A DNA stretch of 64,000 nt. Source: a virus. The stretch covers positions 1 through 64,000 of IMG/VR virus record IMGVR_UViG_3300022925_001882; one strand, given 5' to 3'. Under the pieces are notes generated by a model. The model was not told where the DNA came from. It made no database searches and saw only the letters and a program-made list of their open reading frames with translations. The stretch's first letter is position 1, and the number at the start of each line of letters is the position of its first letter. The translations under genes were made by a program, and so were the position numbers. Positions 1 to 61,828 of the stretch are shown here, one piece after another.

Positions 1-400
1 AAATAATTTTTTGTTTCATAATCTCTAGTTCCATTGGATATTCATCACCGTCAATGTTAAGAGTATATTCTTCGACAGGCATGCCTGTTAATGTTTCTAA
101 ATCTTTTAATAAACCTAATACTCTACGTGCTACCCATGAACGTCTTTCCATTTCTACAAAGACTAACCATTTGTTAGGTGAGAGTTCACCGTCTGATATA
201 CTAGCATCTAAAATAAAATCATAGCCTCTTTCAAACCATGTTACTAAATCTTCAGCAACTAATTTTGATTTAACCATAAAAGTTACTGTGACAATATCTT
301 TGTCTTCTCCCATCTTAGCGGCATATTCATCTATAGATACAAGAGGAACAACTTGATTTTCCATGTCCATGTAGTTTAAACTTTCAGATAGAATAGTCAT
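1..400 (-). CDS. Conserved-looking phage protein of unknown function (3' part missing)
   Basis: The reading frame starts with ATG at 400 and runs off the left edge of the window, giving 133 residues without a stop. I read the start as MTILSESLNYMDMEN, followed by a soluble acidic alpha/beta-looking sequence with motifs such as TWFERGYDF, WLVFVEMERRSWVARR and YTLNIDGDEYPMELE. There is no signal peptide or membrane segment. Its start overlaps the stop of the 210-aa gene upstream as TAATG, so the two are translationally coupled and probably share the late promoters near 1038 and 1093. I do not recognise a family. Confidence 0.8.
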   Translation of the reverse strand, partial: MTILSESLNYMDMENQVVPLVSIDEYAAKMGEDKDIVTVTFMVKSKLVAEDLVTWFERGYDFILDASISDGELSPNKWLVFVEMERRSWVARRVLGLLKDLETLTGMPVEEYTLNIDGDEYPMELEIMKQKII

Positions 401-26954: not shown

Positions 26955-26983
26955 ATTATACAGGATTTATAAAAGAGTGTCAA
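26955..26983 (-). promoter_or_regulatory. Perfect sigma70-type early promoter of dNMP kinase
   Basis: Minus strand TTGACA, 17-nt spacer, TATAAT. Confidence 0.85.
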
Positions 26984-52707: not shown

Positions 52708-53246
52708 TTAAGTCCTGCTTGTTTAAGTTTCTGATATGCACGTTGCACAACGATTGCTTGGTGTTCTGCGTCTTCTACAGCCTTGTGAGACGTTACTGCT
52801 TGACCATCTTTAAGAGATACGTTGCAAAGATCATATATTGTTCTTGTGTCTCTAATAGTGTAGAAAGGCCAGGGTATCGGCATTTCTAATTGCCTAAAGG
52901 CATTCTCTGCAACAACAATATCAAAACCAGCGCCATTAGACCAAACTGCTCTGCGATTCCAGCAGAACTTGTATAACTGATCCATTGCATCTTTAAACGG
53001 AATCCTATCTCTGTCACCCATTGCTTCATCAATTGCATCCTCACTTTGTTCTCCCCACCACCTTAATGTATCAGGGTTTATATGTCTATTTAATTCTTCT
53101 GTTTGCGAATCTATCTCAGGACGTAGTTCTAGTTTTTCTACGACTCCAGTACCCATAGGATCAAAACGAACAGCACCGATTGTTAAAATAACACAATCAG
53201 GATCTGTACTTAGAGTTTCCATATCTATCATTACGTCATTTGCCAT
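52704..53246 (-). CDS. DEDDh 3'-5' exonuclease
   Basis: 180 residues. IDMETLS gives D8-x-E10, WSNGAGFDIVVAENA the third acid, and SHKAVEDAEHQA the H-x4-D, so all five DEDDh residues are present. RWWGEQSEDAIDEAM near 63 is typical of the Rv2179c-like exoribonuclease branch. It could proofread DNA, trim RNA or degrade host nucleic acid. Its stop overlaps the DnaE-like fragment start (ATGA), a pairing that recalls the alpha-epsilon pair of polymerase III. Its own start lies inside the 3' end of the oxygenase gene (11-nt overlap). Confidence 0.88.
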   Translation of the reverse strand: MANDVMIDMETLSTDPDCVILTIGAVRFDPMGTGVVEKLELRPEIDSQTEELNRHINPDTLRWWGEQSEDAIDEAMGDRDRIPFKDAMDQLYKFCWNRRAVWSNGAGFDIVVAENAFRQLEMPIPWPFYTIRDTRTIYDLCNVSLKDGQAVTSHKAVEDAEHQAIVVQRAYQKLKQAGLK

Positions 53247-54042
53247 TAGAACTCCATACGTTATCTTCGTCTTTTATTTCTTTTATTATATCATTTCTGA
53301 GGTAATTAATCAACAAAATGGAACGTTTTTTGGGTAAATGTAATGGCATAGTAGAATGCATTAAACGAGTATTGTAAAACAAGATACTACCTTTTGGCAT
53401 ATCATATTGTTCTGCATTCTCTAAAAAGTATTCATCATGCACGCCTTCATAGCAATCTTGTATATCCCAATCTTGTTGATGACTATAAGGAATAAGTCCA
53501 GTTGCTCCTGTGTCTTTGTCTAAGTCATCAAGTGGAATAATAACTTGTATACCACAGACATCATTGTTTTCTCTTTTATTATATTTTTTAAATCTGTGCG
53601 GTGTATCAATATGAGGTCCTACCCATCTGCTTGGACCATTGATTGTTACGATATCACTTGCATAAAATGTTGCATCAGTTAAATGCTTTTTGATTTCAGG
53701 ATAGATGAGTTCATGTATCTCTTGTACTTCGTCCCAATCATCCGTGAGTTGACTCCACCATACAGCAATGCCAAATAGTTTCTTACATGCCTCTGCTTCT
53801 GCATACTGCTTCTTATGTGTGGATGCACGTACAGGGTAGAGTTCGTCCTTTCTGTCGTTTATACGTTGAATAAGGTCGTCTGATACGATATCATTTATGA
53901 TATCAAAACCCCTGCCTTCATGTGATAATTGATCATTAATGATATCTTTTTTACCGAAGATACGATCATAGTTAGCGGCATAGGCTTTTTGATTTTCACC
54001 CTTTCTAGGTGCGGATCCTTTTCCGCCGTGCCACTGACTCAT
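53236..54042 (-). CDS. 2OG-Fe(II) oxygenase fused to a short phage N-terminal motif
   Basis: 268 residues from the ATG at 54042, preferred because GAGG lies 6 nt upstream and the start overlaps the upstream stop (ATGA). The oxygenase part has GPHIDTP (iron His and Asp, near 145), LMHSTMP (second His, near 230) and KKRSILLINY (2-oxoglutarate Arg). Together these indicate a phytanoyl-CoA-dioxygenase-like enzyme. Residues 1-31 (SQWHGGKGSAPRKG, YAANYDRIFGK) match a short motif found as stand-alone small proteins in other phages. The substrate is unknown; protein, nucleotide and small-molecule hydroxylation are all possible. Confidence 0.82.
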   Translation of the reverse strand: MSQWHGGKGSAPRKGENQKAYAANYDRIFGKKDIINDQLSHEGRGFDIINDIVSDDLIQRINDRKDELYPVRASTHKKQYAEAEACKKLFGIAVWWSQLTDDWDEVQEIHELIYPEIKKHLTDATFYASDIVTINGPSRWVGPHIDTPHRFKKYNKRENNDVCGIQVIIPLDDLDKDTGATGLIPYSHQQDWDIQDCYEGVHDEYFLENAEQYDMPKGSILFYNTRLMHSTMPLHLPKKRSILLINYLRNDIIKEIKDEDNVWSSNGK

Positions 54043-54431
54043 TGCCACCTCGTTTCTAGCCACACACGTTCTTCGTCACCTGCTAGATATATTCTACGTT
54101 GCTTATGATCTTCTTCATTAGACCAACACCAGTTTTCATTTAGTGTATCGTATGTACTGTCGTTGTATTGTGCTAGGCTCATAAAGTTTGATAATTCATG
54201 TACTCTGTCGTAATCTTTCATATCACAACTAGGTCCCCATGTATCCCAACACCAATCTCGTACTTTATTAAAATTTATAATAGAAGACAAATCAGTATGT
54301 GCTAAAGGTCTAGGATGAAAACGTTCATATCTGGGAGGAGTTTTAGTGACACAACACCACTTGAATATGTCATGTCCTTTCCATCGACCATCTAGTTCAT
54401 AAAATTGTAAATGTACTTCTACTGTATTCAA
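54039..54431 (-). CDS. Unknown Trp-rich small protein
   Basis: 130 residues with ten or more Trp. It opens MNTVEVHLQFYELDGRWKGHD; KWCCVTKTPPRYERFHPR and KVRDWCWDTWGPSCD are distinctive. Several Cys and His residues could bind metal but no clear site is visible. It is coupled by ATGA overlaps to both neighbours (zinc-finger protein upstream, oxygenase downstream). Function not recognised. Confidence 0.8.
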   Translation of the reverse strand: MNTVEVHLQFYELDGRWKGHDIFKWCCVTKTPPRYERFHPRPLAHTDLSSIINFNKVRDWCWDTWGPSCDMKDYDRVHELSNFMSLAQYNDSTYDTLNENWCWSNEEDHKQRRIYLAGDEERVWLETRWQ

Positions 54432-56369: not shown

Positions 56370-57830
56370 TCATTTGTAGTTTAATTTTTCTACAACAAAC
56401 GGATAGTTTGCTTCTCTGTAGAAATGTTTACGTTGGGTTAAATGTCTTTTTGCAAAACGACAGGAACTTGTTAAGTCCCAAATTTGAACAAAGTCTTTAT
56501 CTTCTGCTTTACGAATGCCACGACCGATTGACTGTATGACACGAACAAAAGACTTACCTGGCTCAATGAGTACAAGATTAAAAATCCTAGGAATATTGAT
56601 ACCAGTAGAAGCCACGCCATAAGTAGCAACAATGATTTTATTATCACTAATGGCAACGTCATCATATTCTTCTTTTCTGTCATTTACTTTCATGCCTCCT
56701 GATACAAAAACTGCATCATCTAAACGTTCAACAAGGGCATGTCCTGCCGCGATACGATCAACAAGAATCAAAGTATTACCCGACTCTTGTATTGTATCGA
56801 TCAGACTTGCCATCTTATCTAATCGTTTTTCATCACTGAGCAAATGCTTTAGTTCACTTTGATAGTTACTGAACTCCTGTTCGTCTTGTAACTGTACTAT
56901 GTTCACGTGACACTTAGCAAGTACTCCTTTATCTTGCAATTCTTTTGCAGATAGTTTATTAATAACAGGACCTAAACTTACTTGCAAAGCAATTGATTCA
57001 TACTTTGCTTTGGGTACTGTTCCTGTTAGTCCCCATCTGATGGGAACATGTGCCATTACACCTGTTAACAGTTGCTTCAATGCATCTGCTTTTGCCATAT
57101 GTACTTCATCTACAATGACACAAACAACACCTTCAATGAACTCTCCTATAGTACAATCTACTTCACCTCTTTTCGTATTCTTTAACAGAATGTTTAGAGA
57201 TTGCCAAGTACAAATAGTATGTTGTTTAAAATATTCTTTACGATCACCAAAGTATACACCTACATCTAAACCCATGTTGATATAATCTTCTTCGGTTTGT
57301 GATACTAAACTTTTGTTAGGTACGATCACAATACTTCGACCATATGATTCTACACTCTTACTTAGTGCCGCAGTCATAATAGTCTTTCCTGCGCCTGTAG
57401 CCACTTCTTGTATCGATTGAGGATTCTTTAAGAACTCGTTAACAACTTGAACTTGATAGTCTCTAAGTTCAATAGGTTGCCCCTCACAGACATGTCCTTT
57501 AGGCCACAGAACATCTTTAAATGAATCTTTCTTAACTTCTTCAAATTGAAATTGCGTTTGATACTCACGCATGTCTTCCAATTCAATTGAATAGTTTAGT
57601 TCTTCTAATACTGGAATGATTTCTTCCAATAAATTAATATAAGTAGAACCGGCAAGACTACAATAACTAACCTTGCCGTTCCACCTCCCCAACTTAACAC
57701 TGGGCATGTATCTTGCGCCTGGAACCTCAAACTCAAACTTTTGCATTAGTGCCCTTCTAGCATCTAATTCAAGTCCGGCAATCTTTAGATTGACTTCATC
57801 TTTAATTTGTAGTGTTGCGATTCCTGGCAT
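56370..57830 (-). CDS. uvsW: UvsW recombination helicase
   Basis: 486 residues (T4 UvsW: 502). SF2 helicase: an N-terminal UvsW domain (PSVKLGRWNGKV), IELRDYQ as Q-like motif, EVATGAGKT (Walker A, near 145), IVDEVHMA (DEVH, near 240), GLTGTVP (motif III, near 275), then VSGGMKVNDRKE, IVATYGVASTGINIP and QSIGRGIRK (motif VI). UvsW unwinds R-loops and branched DNA and drives the switch from origin to recombination-dependent replication. The start is 3 nt after the TonB-receptor-like stop. Confidence 0.95.
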   Translation of the reverse strand: MPGIATLQIKDEVNLKIAGLELDARRALMQKFEFEVPGARYMPSVKLGRWNGKVSYCSLAGSTYINLLEEIIPVLEELNYSIELEDMREYQTQFQFEEVKKDSFKDVLWPKGHVCEGQPIELRDYQVQVVNEFLKNPQSIQEVATGAGKTIMTAALSKSVESYGRSIVIVPNKSLVSQTEEDYINMGLDVGVYFGDRKEYFKQHTICTWQSLNILLKNTKRGEVDCTIGEFIEGVVCVIVDEVHMAKADALKQLLTGVMAHVPIRWGLTGTVPKAKYESIALQVSLGPVINKLSAKELQDKGVLAKCHVNIVQLQDEQEFSNYQSELKHLLSDEKRLDKMASLIDTIQESGNTLILVDRIAAGHALVERLDDAVFVSGGMKVNDRKEEYDDVAISDNKIIVATYGVASTGINIPRIFNLVLIEPGKSFVRVIQSIGRGIRKAEDKDFVQIWDLTSSCRFAKRHLTQRKHFYREANYPFVVEKLNYK

Positions 57831-57833
57831 CGA

Positions 57834-59426
57834 TTAAGGCCTATATTGTAGTGTTATGAAGTATTCTAATCCACCTGCTCTGTAGTTAGGTACTAATTCA
57901 AATTCATCATCTAGTATATCTCTTATAGTAAATGATAGCAAGTATTTAGGAATAACTTGCCTTTCGATTTTGTAGTCAATTGAACTTACATCATCTAGCA
58001 TTTCTGTACCATCGTATGGACCAGGCGTTCTGTTAAACAATCCAGTATATCTAAATGAAATATCATAACCACCTAAGTAAGTTGTAGATGATATGATTGC
58101 TTTGTATTCGGGAATACGTGGTTGATCAGAGTTTGTGTATCCTAACTCAATACCTACTAGAGTAGTATTAAGTCTTTCAACAACAAAACTGTTTACATAT
58201 CTAACACCTTCAGTGTCGTATGATCCAGTGTTAACAAACTGTGAGTCTGCAAAACTATAATCAATACCTTCACTAAATTTGTATTTGAATACTGTAAAGT
58301 TCTTGTATCCAATCTCTCCACCTACTGCTTCTTCAGGGTCTAAACTTTTATTAGGTAAAGTCCAAGCATCACCGTTCAGTTCATAAAGAGTTGGGTTACG
58401 ATATGATGTACCGAAACTACCAAACCAATTATTAGATTCTGCACCTATACGATATACAAATGCATCTTCACTTAATCTAAAACCTAGATCAAACAGATCG
58501 AATGATGTTAAAGAGTAAACTGATAATTGAGTTTGGCTAAAGTCTTCATACTTTTCATTTTCAGCAGTTGCACCCAGTAATGTGTTTCCAACTTGATGTC
58601 TAGTATCTGCATAAAATCTTTCCGCATCACTCTTATATGTTTCTACACTTTCTGTTTTATAGTTAGCATTGTTAAATGAGTAACCGAATGTGTAGTTATC
58701 ATTCCTTATTGATAAGGAACCTTTATCTCCTGATTGTACGCAATCATTTGACTGTGAGAAACTTGCAGTATAGCAGTTATCATAGTCATACTCGTATGAT
58801 GTACCTGATAGATTTACTTTCCAGTCACCGAATTCTTTCTGTCCTTTGACCGTTAAATTGTTATAACTATCCTTTTCATCGTTGTCTGTTCTAACACTAT
58901 CATTCTTTGCATCAAAGTAACTTAGATTAAAACCACTACCTGTGTGACTTACAAATGTATTACTACCATATCTGATAATAGATCCATCTTTAAGATCATC
59001 AGTAATAAAAATAGCACCACCTAAACTACCAGAACCATATAGGACTGAAGTTGGACCATTGACTATTTTTACATTTTCGTTTCCAGTAGCAAAGTCATGA
59101 CCAAAATCATACCATCCGCTACCTGCATCATTAGCAGGTACACCGTTTCTGAAAATAGTCGTGTGAATCGTTTGTGTTCCTCTTTCTGTATAACCTAAAA
59201 AAGAACCATAACCACCTGAAGTTGTTGCTTCGGGTATAATTGATTCTAATACGTTAACATCAGTCGAAGGATCTGATTCTGTTTCATATATGGTTGCGCC
59301 TGTGACTACTACTTCTTCGATCTCCTGTGCTTGTACTTCATTTGCTACTATCATTAGTAACATAAATACTACCACTGCATAAAGTGGAGCAAAGTTGATG
59401 TGGAAGTTTTTGTTTTCTTCTTTCAT
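57834..59426 (-). CDS. TonB-dependent outer-membrane receptor-like protein
   Basis: 530 residues, uninterrupted. A Sec signal peptide (about 1-33, hydrophobic LYAVVVFMLLMIVANEVQA) is followed by IEEVVVTGA (36-44), the usual start of TonB-dependent receptors including a TonB-box-like strand. The plug domain (~50-140) has SFLGYTERGTQT, FRNGVPANDAGSGWYDFG, and VKIVNGPTSVLYGSGSLGG, matching the RGxxx..DG.......GP.S.LYG..A.GG.I pattern. The rest is alternating aromatic/polar strand sequence, ending LEYFITLQYRP. The barrel (~390 residues) is short for a 22-strand family. It is coupled to the upstream gene by ATGA, and UvsW begins 3 nt after it. It may serve nutrient uptake or superinfection exclusion. 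Confidence 0.82.
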   Translation of the reverse strand: MKEENKNFHINFAPLYAVVVFMLLMIVANEVQAQEIEEVVVTGATIYETESDPSTDVNVLESIIPEATTSGGYGSFLGYTERGTQTIHTTIFRNGVPANDAGSGWYDFGHDFATGNENVKIVNGPTSVLYGSGSLGGAIFITDDLKDGSIIRYGSNTFVSHTGSGFNLSYFDAKNDSVRTDNDEKDSYNNLTVKGQKEFGDWKVNLSGTSYEYDYDNCYTASFSQSNDCVQSGDKGSLSIRNDNYTFGYSFNNANYKTESVETYKSDAERFYADTRHQVGNTLLGATAENEKYEDFSQTQLSVYSLTSFDLFDLGFRLSEDAFVYRIGAESNNWFGSFGTSYRNPTLYELNGDAWTLPNKSLDPEEAVGGEIGYKNFTVFKYKFSEGIDYSFADSQFVNTGSYDTEGVRYVNSFVVERLNTTLVGIELGYTNSDQPRIPEYKAIISSTTYLGGYDISFRYTGLFNRTPGPYDGTEMLDDVSSIDYKIERQVIPKYLLSFTIRDILDDEFELVPNYRAGGLEYFITLQYRP

Positions 59427-60544
59427 TTTATATTTATGGGTCTCCCATTTGTTATAATTATAATTTTGCCATTTTGATTATCTCCATGACATTGTTCGGG
59501 TTCTACAATTGAATTAAATTGCATTAAAACAGGTAAACTTTTTACAGTTGTTTCTGTATAATCATCAGGTTGATCAAACAAATCCCCGCTCTTATGCATG
59601 TTTAACGAATGTTCAGAAATTGCTTCCCGGCATTCTTTAAAGACTCCAATTCTAGTAGCCTCATCTTTAGACGCATGTGATCTCCACTCTGGAGTTCCCC
59701 TCCCTAGTACGACATCACTTACACCAATTTCGACAAGCCATTCACAACAATCGTTTATCGCATCTACATCTATTTCTGTAATGTAGTTTGCGGCAAACTC
59801 CAGTTTAGGATCATCATTGATGATTGCCTTGTCTACTTTTATACCAAGTTGTGACATTCGGTATAAACATTTTGCACTGTTGTCTAAAGTTACGCCTGCA
59901 AGTAACTCATCTAATACTGAATTAGATTTGACAACAGTATATTGTCCATTAGTTAAGACCAACGTTGGATCTTTGTATTCTACTTTGGTTTGTTCTAATG
60001 TATCAATTACGTCTTTTACTTCATTGTGATACACTGTTGTAAAGTATTGAGGTAAAATATTGTATGCTAGTTTCAAAGATGATGTGCTTGGATCTGCTTC
60101 ATATCTTTTGCGTTCACTATTCCATACCCAAGGTTGTGAGTTATCTATTGGACCATAATCATCAATAGGAAAAAAGGTTGTCATTTCCTTTCTGAAGTTA
60201 GATATAAATTCTTTTTTGAATGGAACTCTGATAACCATTTTATTCACACTATCGTCCCAATCAACATTTGCATTTGTATACTTAGGAAGACTTGGTACAA
60301 CTACACACTTCCATGTTAAGGTTTCTAACTCATCGACTGTATATCCGTTAGTAGCAAATTGCTTTCTGTACTTGTGCAAAAGTTTATCAAACAACTCTGC
60401 TTGACCAGATGTAATCTGCTTTTTGTCTTGGGTCAATGATTGCATGTTGGATATGAATTTGTGATCATAGTGAGACAAACTAATGGAAGTGGTCAACATA
60501 AAGTAGATCACTTGTTCTTTAGATGTAAATTCAATCTTTTGCAT
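59423..60544 (-). CDS. Unknown 373-residue protein
   Basis: Start at ATG 60544, with AGGAAG 12 nt and a TATAAT box 6 nt upstream. Not recognised. The N-terminal ~80 residues are helical and basic (TSKEQVIYFMLTTSISLSH, then SGQAELFDKLLHKYRKQFA). Two WN-type elements (VWNSERKRYEAD) and an alpha/beta region (VSDVVLGRGTPEWRSHASKD) follow, with SLPVLMQFNSIVEPEQCHG near the end. It is encoded between the AAA ATPase and the receptor gene, whose start it overlaps (ATGA). A nucleic-acid-related role would suit the neighbours but is unproven. Confidence 0.75.
   Translation of the reverse strand: MQKIEFTSKEQVIYFMLTTSISLSHYDHKFISNMQSLTQDKKQITSGQAELFDKLLHKYRKQFATNGYTVDELETLTWKCVVVPSLPKYTNANVDWDDSVNKMVIRVPFKKEFISNFRKEMTTFFPIDDYGPIDNSQPWVWNSERKRYEADPSTSSLKLAYNILPQYFTTVYHNEVKDVIDTLEQTKVEYKDPTLVLTNGQYTVVKSNSVLDELLAGVTLDNSAKCLYRMSQLGIKVDKAIINDDPKLEFAANYITEIDVDAINDCCEWLVEIGVSDVVLGRGTPEWRSHASKDEATRIGVFKECREAISEHSLNMHKSGDLFDQPDDYTETTVKSLPVLMQFNSIVEPEQCHGDNQNGKIIIITNGRPINIK
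59431..59438 (-). promoter_or_regulatory. Late-type element CATAAATA before the receptor gene
   Basis: Minus strand CATAAATA, 4 nt before the ATG, inside the end of the 373-aa gene. One base from consensus; it could add late transcription to the early operon. Confidence 0.4.
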
Positions 60545-60550
60545 GTTTAT

Positions 60551-60556
60551 ATTATA
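60551..60556 (-). promoter_or_regulatory. TATAAT box 6 nt before ATG
   Basis: Perfect -10 on the minus strand but no good -35 at 16-18 nt, so it is uncertain. Confidence 0.3.
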
Positions 60557-60598
60557 CTTCCTTTTGTACACTTAACCTATTAAAACGGTAATAAAAAA

Positions 60599-60618
60599 GG
60601 GGCGACCTAAGCCGCCCC
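60599..60618 (-). terminator. Terminator after the AAA ATPase gene
   Basis: GGGGCG / CGCCCC stem with an 8-nt loop, followed on the minus strand by TTTTTT. Confidence 0.85.
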
Positions 60619-60635
60619 CAACTCCTGACACAGAG

Positions 60636-61676
60636 TTATCTGATTTTCATGCAAGTTGACTCTGCTAACACTTTCCAGTTATTAACACCAGTCACTTTGA
60701 ATAAGTCAGCAATCTTAAGAGCCATTCTCATTGAGATTTCTCTAAGTTTGTGAGCATTCTCTTCCATGAAGTCAAAGATTTCTTGACCTTGACCATCGTT
60801 GAAGTCGTAGTCTTTGAACAAACCACCGTCACTGTCTCTGTCAACCTGCTTGATTCTAAGCATTTTGTCTCTAGCACTGTCGATAGTCAGATCCAAGAAG
60901 TGACACCTTGACTGAAGGGCTTCTAAGTGATCCTGCAACTTCTTAGACTTCAAGTGTTCAAACTTCAAGTTAGTAATGAAGATACATGAACCTTTGAACT
61001 CAAAAGAGTTTGGAATACCTTCTCTGTTAAGAAGACTAGAATCAGAGTTCCAGCAAATCCTTCTGCTTTTGCCTGAGTCAAGGGCTGCCTTAAGAATGTT
61101 AAGAGCAAGATCGTCCTGAAAAACAGAGTCACAGTCATCAAACACTAAAACGTTTTTAGCATCAGAATACTTGTAAAGAACTGCGTAAAGACCTAGAGCA
61201 GTCATTGCACCTTTAACAACTTCATACCTAGTTCTGCTGTTAGTCAGTTGATCAAACAATGAAGCCTTCTCCATTTGTTGTTCAACACCATAAGACTTAC
61301 CTACACCTGGAGGGCCTGAAACGATCATTGCTCTAATGTCGCCTGCGATAGTAGCCTTAGCCATATCATCAAGGATGTCGAATCTAGTTTTGATTCTGTC
61401 CATAGCCTCAGTTTCTGTTTCAGTCACCTCGGGTGCTAGTTCTTCAACTGCTTGATTAGCCATAATTGGTTTCTCAGTTCCCCATGTGATATCGTTAATG
61501 TTATTAACTTTGATTTTAACATTAGCAATTTGAACTTGGGGAAACTTACCGTCATTTTTGACAGTAACGAATCCACCGCGTTTGCCTGTTGCGTAACCCT
61601 TAACCAACTCAAATTGTTGATTAACGATTGGTTGATTTCTGTACTCTCCGTACTTTACTGTGATAGTCTGTGTCAT
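60636..61676 (-). CDS. AAA+ ATPase of unknown role
   Basis: 346 residues. Walker A GPPGVGKS (~121-128), Walker B VLVFDDCDS (~177-185), sensor 1 CIFITNLKFE near 237 and LQSRCHFLDL as an arginine-finger-like SRC. The N-terminal ~90 residues (KYGEYRNQPIVNQQFELVKGYA) look like a separate small beta domain. The ATPase core resembles MoxR/dynein-like single-ring phage ATPases near replication genes, but the function is unknown. Expression is strong and early: two perfect sigma70-type promoters lie upstream and GGAG precedes the ATG. It has its own terminator. Confidence 0.85.
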   Translation of the reverse strand: MTQTITVKYGEYRNQPIVNQQFELVKGYATGKRGGFVTVKNDGKFPQVQIANVKIKVNNINDITWGTEKPIMANQAVEELAPEVTETETEAMDRIKTRFDILDDMAKATIAGDIRAMIVSGPPGVGKSYGVEQQMEKASLFDQLTNSRTRYEVVKGAMTALGLYAVLYKYSDAKNVLVFDDCDSVFQDDLALNILKAALDSGKSRRICWNSDSSLLNREGIPNSFEFKGSCIFITNLKFEHLKSKKLQDHLEALQSRCHFLDLTIDSARDKMLRIKQVDRDSDGGLFKDYDFNDGQGQEIFDFMEENAHKLREISMRMALKIADLFKVTGVNNWKVLAESTCMKIR

Positions 61677-61711: not shown

Positions 61712-61740
61712 ATTATACTACCTTTGGGTAGTAATGTCAA
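61712..61740 (-). promoter_or_regulatory. Perfect sigma70-type early promoter (proximal)
   Basis: Minus strand TTGACA, 17-nt spacer, TATAAT, ending 35 nt before the AAA ATPase ATG. The spacer contains a TACCTTTGGGTA-type inverted repeat. Confidence 0.9.
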
Positions 61741-61799: not shown

Positions 61800-61828
61800 A
61801 TTATACGGAAAAAGGTACCAAATGTCAA
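61800..61828 (-). promoter_or_regulatory. Perfect sigma70-type early promoter (distal)
   Basis: Minus strand TTGACA, 17-nt spacer, TATAAT, 88 nt upstream of the proximal copy and sharing the GGCTTGACATT context. Confidence 0.9.

Follow-up and report, generated by a model that had tools for sequence, protein, structure and literature searches.

The standard barrel of TonB-dependent receptors has 22 strands, and the genes for BtuB, the closest described relative of the protein reported here, typically though not obligatorily have a cobalamin riboswitch of their own. In BtuB, five aspartates in extracellular loops form a calcium cage (PMC7360065). We found in viral DNA a gene whose product resembles BtuB (TIGR01779; PDB 2gsk, 1nqh) in its TonB box, its plug, its predicted 22-strand barrel and, by alignment, acidic residues at four of the five calcium-cage positions; BtuB was both its best sequence-profile match and its top Foldseek match. 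The phage copy differs from BtuB in that the two are 18-23% identical and the phage scores fall far below the BtuB equivalog cut-off, in its short loops and an additional pair of cysteines within the calcium-loop region, in having no riboswitch found with it and in lying in a phage operon in place of btuFCD.

Cyanophage pstS is a phage auxiliary gene for nutrient uptake and, to our knowledge, the known phage auxiliary uptake genes act in the periplasm or cytoplasm. The gene described here is like pstS in that a host-type uptake protein is phage-borne and plausibly expressed in infection, whereas its product would be an outer-membrane, TonB-driven, vitamin-type receptor. Phage PA-2 encodes the outer-membrane porin Lc/NmpC, which has an exclusion effect; there, too, the phage supplies a barrel protein of the host surface, but Lc/NmpC is a passive porin with neither plug nor TonB box. 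In BFVD we found one phage-assigned TonB-dependent receptor, from an uncultured marine phage (A0A8D9FQQ5); it is 805 aa long, is 11% identical to the window protein in a structural alignment and is named SusC instead of BtuB type. A protein of pelagiphage Skadi-1 has been published as a 'TonB-dependent receptor' (PMC10504331). We found that this 'TonB-dependent receptor domain protein' (OP131302 28891-29337, L197; 148 aa) matches PHROG 486 (virion structural) and has no Pfam receptor domain; it is a misannotation and shares the annotation alone with the window receptor. Among 50,697 phage records, nothing similar was found except three BtuB matches at 22-24% identity, one of them adjoining 16S rRNA, which look like host DNA. 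No paper describing such a phage gene was found in the open-access literature searched. We regard the receptor as a new variety of phage auxiliary gene, a class already known.

The receptor gene and its predicted protein

The window (the whole stretch of DNA analysed, 64,000 nucleotides) belongs to a viral record of 89,402 bases that carries UvsX, UvsY and UvsW genes, with UvsX and UvsY upstream of the receptor (Pfam, PHROGs). For UvsW and two virion genes, the nearest isolates are the jumbo myophages Phosso, Atu_ph07 and PA5oct. The initial annotation had described a 530-residue ORF, with no strand given; we found 530 codons open on the minus strand, the plus strand being full of stops (Table 1). 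The EEVVVTGA start and the plug signature described with it were both present, as EIEEVVVTGA and GPTSVLYGSGSLGG. Its reading of the junctions also held, since the sequence shows the receptor start overlapping the upstream gene via ATGA and 3 nt between the receptor end and the downstream gene, whose naming as uvsW was borne out by PHROGs.

Table 1. Features of the receptor gene and its cluster, in window coordinates.
Feature	Position	Strand	Basis
Gene for a BtuB-type TonB-dependent receptor of the phage, 530 aa	57834..59426	minus	Pfam, NCBIfam, AlphaFold2 model, Foldseek
N-terminus resembling a signal peptide, residues 1-33 (helix at 13-27, AQAQ at the end)	59328..59426	minus	sequence and model
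TonB box, residues 36-44, IEEVVVTGA	59295..59321	minus	alignment
Plug domain, residues 53-147, with YGSGS motif	58986..59270	minus	Pfam PF07715
Beta-barrel, residues 148-530, 22 predicted strands	57837..58985	minus	model and Foldseek
BtuB-type calcium-loop region, residues 181-229	58740..58886	minus	alignment
uvsW helicase gene, 3 nt downstream of receptor	56370..57830	minus	PHROGs phrog_16, 8e-81
382-aa gene upstream of receptor, ATGA overlap	59423..60571	minus	sequence
Terminator-like hairpin between AAA gene and 382-aa gene	60598..60619	minus	pattern match only
AAA-ATPase gene, first in conserved cluster	60636..61676	minus	phrog_1250
Second perfect sigma-70-type promoter upstream of cluster	61712..61740	minus	pattern
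Perfect sigma-70-type promoter TTGACA-N17-TATAAT upstream of cluster	61800..61828	minus	pattern and shuffles

Pfam detected the plug in the window protein at an E-value of 8.7e-9 (36.3 bits against a cut-off of 23.9) and in 18/18 aligned relatives; in the same 18-row alignment, E37, E38 and V41 of the TonB box were invariant. The AlphaFold2 model, of moderate confidence (pLDDT 68, pTM 0.69), has the plug followed by 22 barrel strands. Searching the PDB with this model by Foldseek gave BtuB of E. coli or Bacteroides as the first 14 matches, the best of them being the BtuB:TonB complex (1.2e-16, TM 0.71). These results agree with the TonB-dependent receptor identity proposed initially and overturn the shorter-than-usual barrel described with it, as the predicted strand number is the standard one. 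Short loops account for the small size of the protein; relatives reach 689 aa. From the domain matches and the model, the window gene is predicted to encode a complete TonB-dependent receptor, with TonB box, plug and 22-strand barrel.

Among NCBIfam models, TIGR01779 (BtuB) ranked first for the window protein (1.2e-10) and was the best model in 15 of the 18 members (best E 1.6e-16), and the phage family profile matched no PDB sequences other than BtuB. The equivalog cut-off of this model, 599.7 bits, was not reached, with 40.6 bits for the window protein and all phage members far below. When a relative of 665 aa was modelled as well (pLDDT 71.5), this second model was again a TonB-dependent receptor, and siderophore receptors matched it as well as BtuB did. 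Hence, the fold is firm, and the substrate is not taken from it.

Occurrence and kinship among phages

Relatives of the receptor, 100% to 29% identical, are encoded in at least 79 viral contigs under about 70 metagenome identifiers. The gene and its flanking genes come back together in 79 contigs, which rules out a mis-assembly at 57.8-59.4 kb. The initial view of an integrated phage gene over a stray host fragment is supported; host contamination was also rejected, given the recurrence in dozens of contigs of up to 340 kb. A profile scan confirmed 172 relatives, the best 80 of which include contigs of 339,794, 250,519 and 216,820 bases. ORFs of at least 500 aa were present in 67 phage members. 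The carriers are T4-related, jumbo-type phages, mostly from marine-type metagenomes, and no isolate was found to carry the gene.

The receptor recurs in viral contigs between the AAA-ATPase gene and uvsW, its usual site and the one named in the initial annotation, and the commonest gene order is AAA gene, receptor, uvsW, p166. In one lineage, the receptor follows a PNP_UDP_1 gene and lies between gp25/baseplate and gp47/gp46-like genes; in a third slot, it is upstream of the AAA gene. In close kin of the window phage, whose uvsW is 68-76% identical, the AAA gene, the 382-aa gene and uvsW leave no space for a receptor. Hence, as kin with the same flanks are without it, the receptor is an accessory gene of T4-related jumbo-type phages, at a preferred site. 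A dedicated pairing of the receptor with the 382-aa gene was rejected, since some related phages have that gene and no receptor, and the receptor also occurs without it.

In a tree that covered sampled Pseudomonadota, all phage copies formed one clade (support 100) on a long stem of about 2 changes per column, and the baseplate-site copies fell inside it. A tree with bacterial receptors had been proposed initially as a route to the donor; it gave this single clade. Searches of 299 Pseudomonadota, of 385 genomes from one class and of 197 from one order gave no close bacterial donor, and the scan of genome contigs is biased in that a hit had to contain one of two exact peptide patterns.

Several other genes were also seen. 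In the baseplate-site lineage, the PNP_UDP_1 (nucleosidase/phosphorylase family) gene overlaps the receptor start by one base (L060, 9450-10001). In a distant phage lineage, a gene of 380-407 aa lies between uvsY and the AAA gene (L037 7000-8202, L078 5218-6390 and similar); it had no Pfam match and may, by eye, resemble a glycosyltransferase. A weak BLAST match of a neighbour gene of about 390 aa to the receptor was judged a low-complexity chance match. Among the baseplate genes of the second phage lineage lies one ORF of some 7,000 codons (G003 contig 50105-71230, minus strand, L206-L207; G002 25142-46423), which is about 75% conserved between the two contigs.

Substrate, expression and proposed role

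Profile searches of bacterial genomes gave distant receptors, the best at 7e-15. We found a cobalamin riboswitch (RF00174 or AdoCbl-II, RF01689) at 28 of 31 bacterial receptor loci, each the best match of its genome to the phage profile, its position upstream of the gene being checked against ORF coordinates for several loci. Among control receptors from the same genomes, 2/20 had one (Fisher p 7.5e-9); these controls were picked for the strongest Pfam barrel matches, so the set leans to large siderophore-type receptors. Each of these genomes contains up to 53 barrel matches, and the phage profile scored 28-68 bits on the riboswitch-linked receptors and at most 16 on the controls. Matches at 1e-6 were found in only 10 of the 197 genomes of the order. 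Among the genomes searched, the closest bacterial relatives of the phage receptor by profile score are riboswitch-controlled B12 receptors. The AdoCbl-II riboswitches were found in AT-rich genomes of 1.0-1.3 Mb, which are probably SAR11-like; small AT-rich genomes with BtuB-like receptors behind such riboswitches include L216, L217 and L219-L223.

We take the calcium-cage aspartates of BtuB to be D179, D193, D195, D230 and D241 (numbering checked on the chain). Four of these, D193, D195, D230 and D241, aligned with E184, D186, D216 and D228 of the phage protein, and D179 had no clear counterpart in the phage alignment. The phage region also holds Y215 and a phage-specific Cys pair, C218/C229. 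The BtuB-type Ca2+-loop motif was present in 65/67 phage, 18/21 nearest bacterial and 2/20 control receptors. Taken together, the bacterial relatives, riboswitches, TonB box and calcium-type loops point to vitamin B12/corrinoids over iron as the putative substrate. The nutrient-uptake idea of the initial annotation is thus supported and narrowed to B12/corrinoids by the riboswitches and loops, and its iron option is less favoured.

The window contains four perfect TTGACA-16..18-TATAAT sites versus 0.08 in shuffles; like most genes, all four are on the minus strand. Two of them are upstream of the AAA gene of the cluster, and most window-clade loci have at least one of this pair; in the distant clade, a perfect sigma-70 site lies directly upstream of 15 receptor genes. 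The two further perfect promoters are at window positions 26983 and 3554. T4 late promoters were not enriched, and no Rfam riboswitch was found in the window or the nine phage loci scanned. Since consensus sigma-70 promoters suggest transcription by unmodified host polymerase, the receptor cluster is probably expressed early, a timing judged from the promoter consensus. The hairpin upstream of the 382-aa gene may reduce read-through.

We propose, at a probability of roughly 0.6, that the phages sustain corrinoid uptake in infected cells through a diverged BtuB-type receptor that escapes host B12 feedback. Host RNA polymerase would read the receptor gene early from the consensus promoters, and the product would, after export, insert into the outer membrane. 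Its calcium-stabilised extracellular loops would bind cobalamin or another corrinoid, whose import would be powered by host TonB-ExbBD. Because the phage copy is without the cobalamin riboswitch of the cellular copies, B12 could not shut uptake off, and the receptor may persist while host transcripts are lost. The broader proposal, that widespread jumbo-type phages carry their own B12/corrinoid receptor, sigma-70-driven and without riboswitch feedback, and so keep a scarce vitamin supply open, is in our estimate an even bet.

The ribonucleotide reductase of the large receptor-bearing phages is of class Ia (NrdA) and independent of B12, so B12 for a class II reductase of the phage itself was rejected for the large contigs checked; 42 shorter contigs had no ribonucleotide reductase. 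Hence, the enzymes to benefit from B12 would be those of the host. Neither a B12 enzyme nor btuFCD was seen in the annotated phage stretches. Seawater contains little B12, which many marine bacteria are unable to synthesise, so viral control over its uptake would be important for microbial vitamin flow. A complete, conserved TonB-powered outer-membrane receptor shared by a broad group of phages would give viruses control over a nutrient gate of the cells they infect, and, if the B12 reading is true, vitamin piracy at the outer membrane would be a phage strategy. These results suggest that such phages sustain the import of B12, or of a comparable scarce compound, by the cells they infect.

Counting against the proposed reading are the scores far below the cut-off, the long stem, the lack of a clear D179 counterpart, the ambiguous second model, the B12-independent reductase and, for early expression, the hairpin inside the cluster. 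The substrate may have changed, because the phage proteins are both far below the BtuB cut-off and on a very long stem; a transporter of the same lineage might have switched in phages to another scarce ligand, such as an iron chelate, metal complex, nucleoside or small molecule. Such a switch, which we hold possible though doubtful, would also fit the changes in barrel-loop length, the Cys pair, the coupling to a PNP_UDP_1 nucleosidase/phosphorylase gene in one lineage and the equally good fit of the 665-aa relative's model to siderophore receptors. However, the calcium-loop region, common to the riboswitch-linked B12 receptors, is among the most constrained parts of the protein, and no iron, siderophore or metal gene adjoins the receptor in the loci read.

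Selection and competing readings

We found a median pairwise dN/dS of 0.167 across 30 window-clade genes; the receptor gene is under purifying selection. Taking dN of each region over dS of the gene, the plug was the most constrained domain (0.073), with 0.088 for the calcium-loop region (residues 176-235) and 0.138 for the TonB-box linker, and the signal peptide was the least constrained region (0.384). Were the protein a non-transporting decoy, no such constraint on the plug and TonB box would be expected. The short-barrel, dominant-negative decoy raised in the initial annotation was rejected, given the 22 strands, the invariant TonB-box glutamates and plug core and the constraint on the plug.

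The same annotation had also raised receptor masking and a block to superinfection, in which the cell surface would be flooded with a variant or TonB occupied, so that phages or colicin-like toxins using BtuB/TonB are kept out. TonB-dependent receptors are common phage receptors, strong constitutive-type promoters would suit early exclusion and structure 8a60 shows FhuA with the exclusion lipoprotein Llp. Phages do block TonB-dependent receptors, as Cor acts on FhuA (PMC11436027). However, a decoy or masker needs no intact TonB box and plug, yet both are invariant and most constrained, and a truncated form is not dominant among members, 67 of which have ORFs of at least 500 aa. We found nothing specific that favours exclusion and consider it improbable.

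A functionless passenger captured by chance from a host, or host contamination, would suit the patchy presence among close relatives, but we give it almost no weight in view of the dN/dS of 0.17, the single phage-wide clade, the dozens of contigs of up to 340 kb and the fixed genomic slots.

Elsewhere, the window has no tRNA genes and carries a PhyH-type dioxygenase gene at 53236-54063 (2.5e-10). At positions 80842-84276 of the record (L202, L203), we found genes for a DegT-family aminotransferase and a nucleotide-sugar epimerase, which suggest sugar modification of the virion or the host surface.
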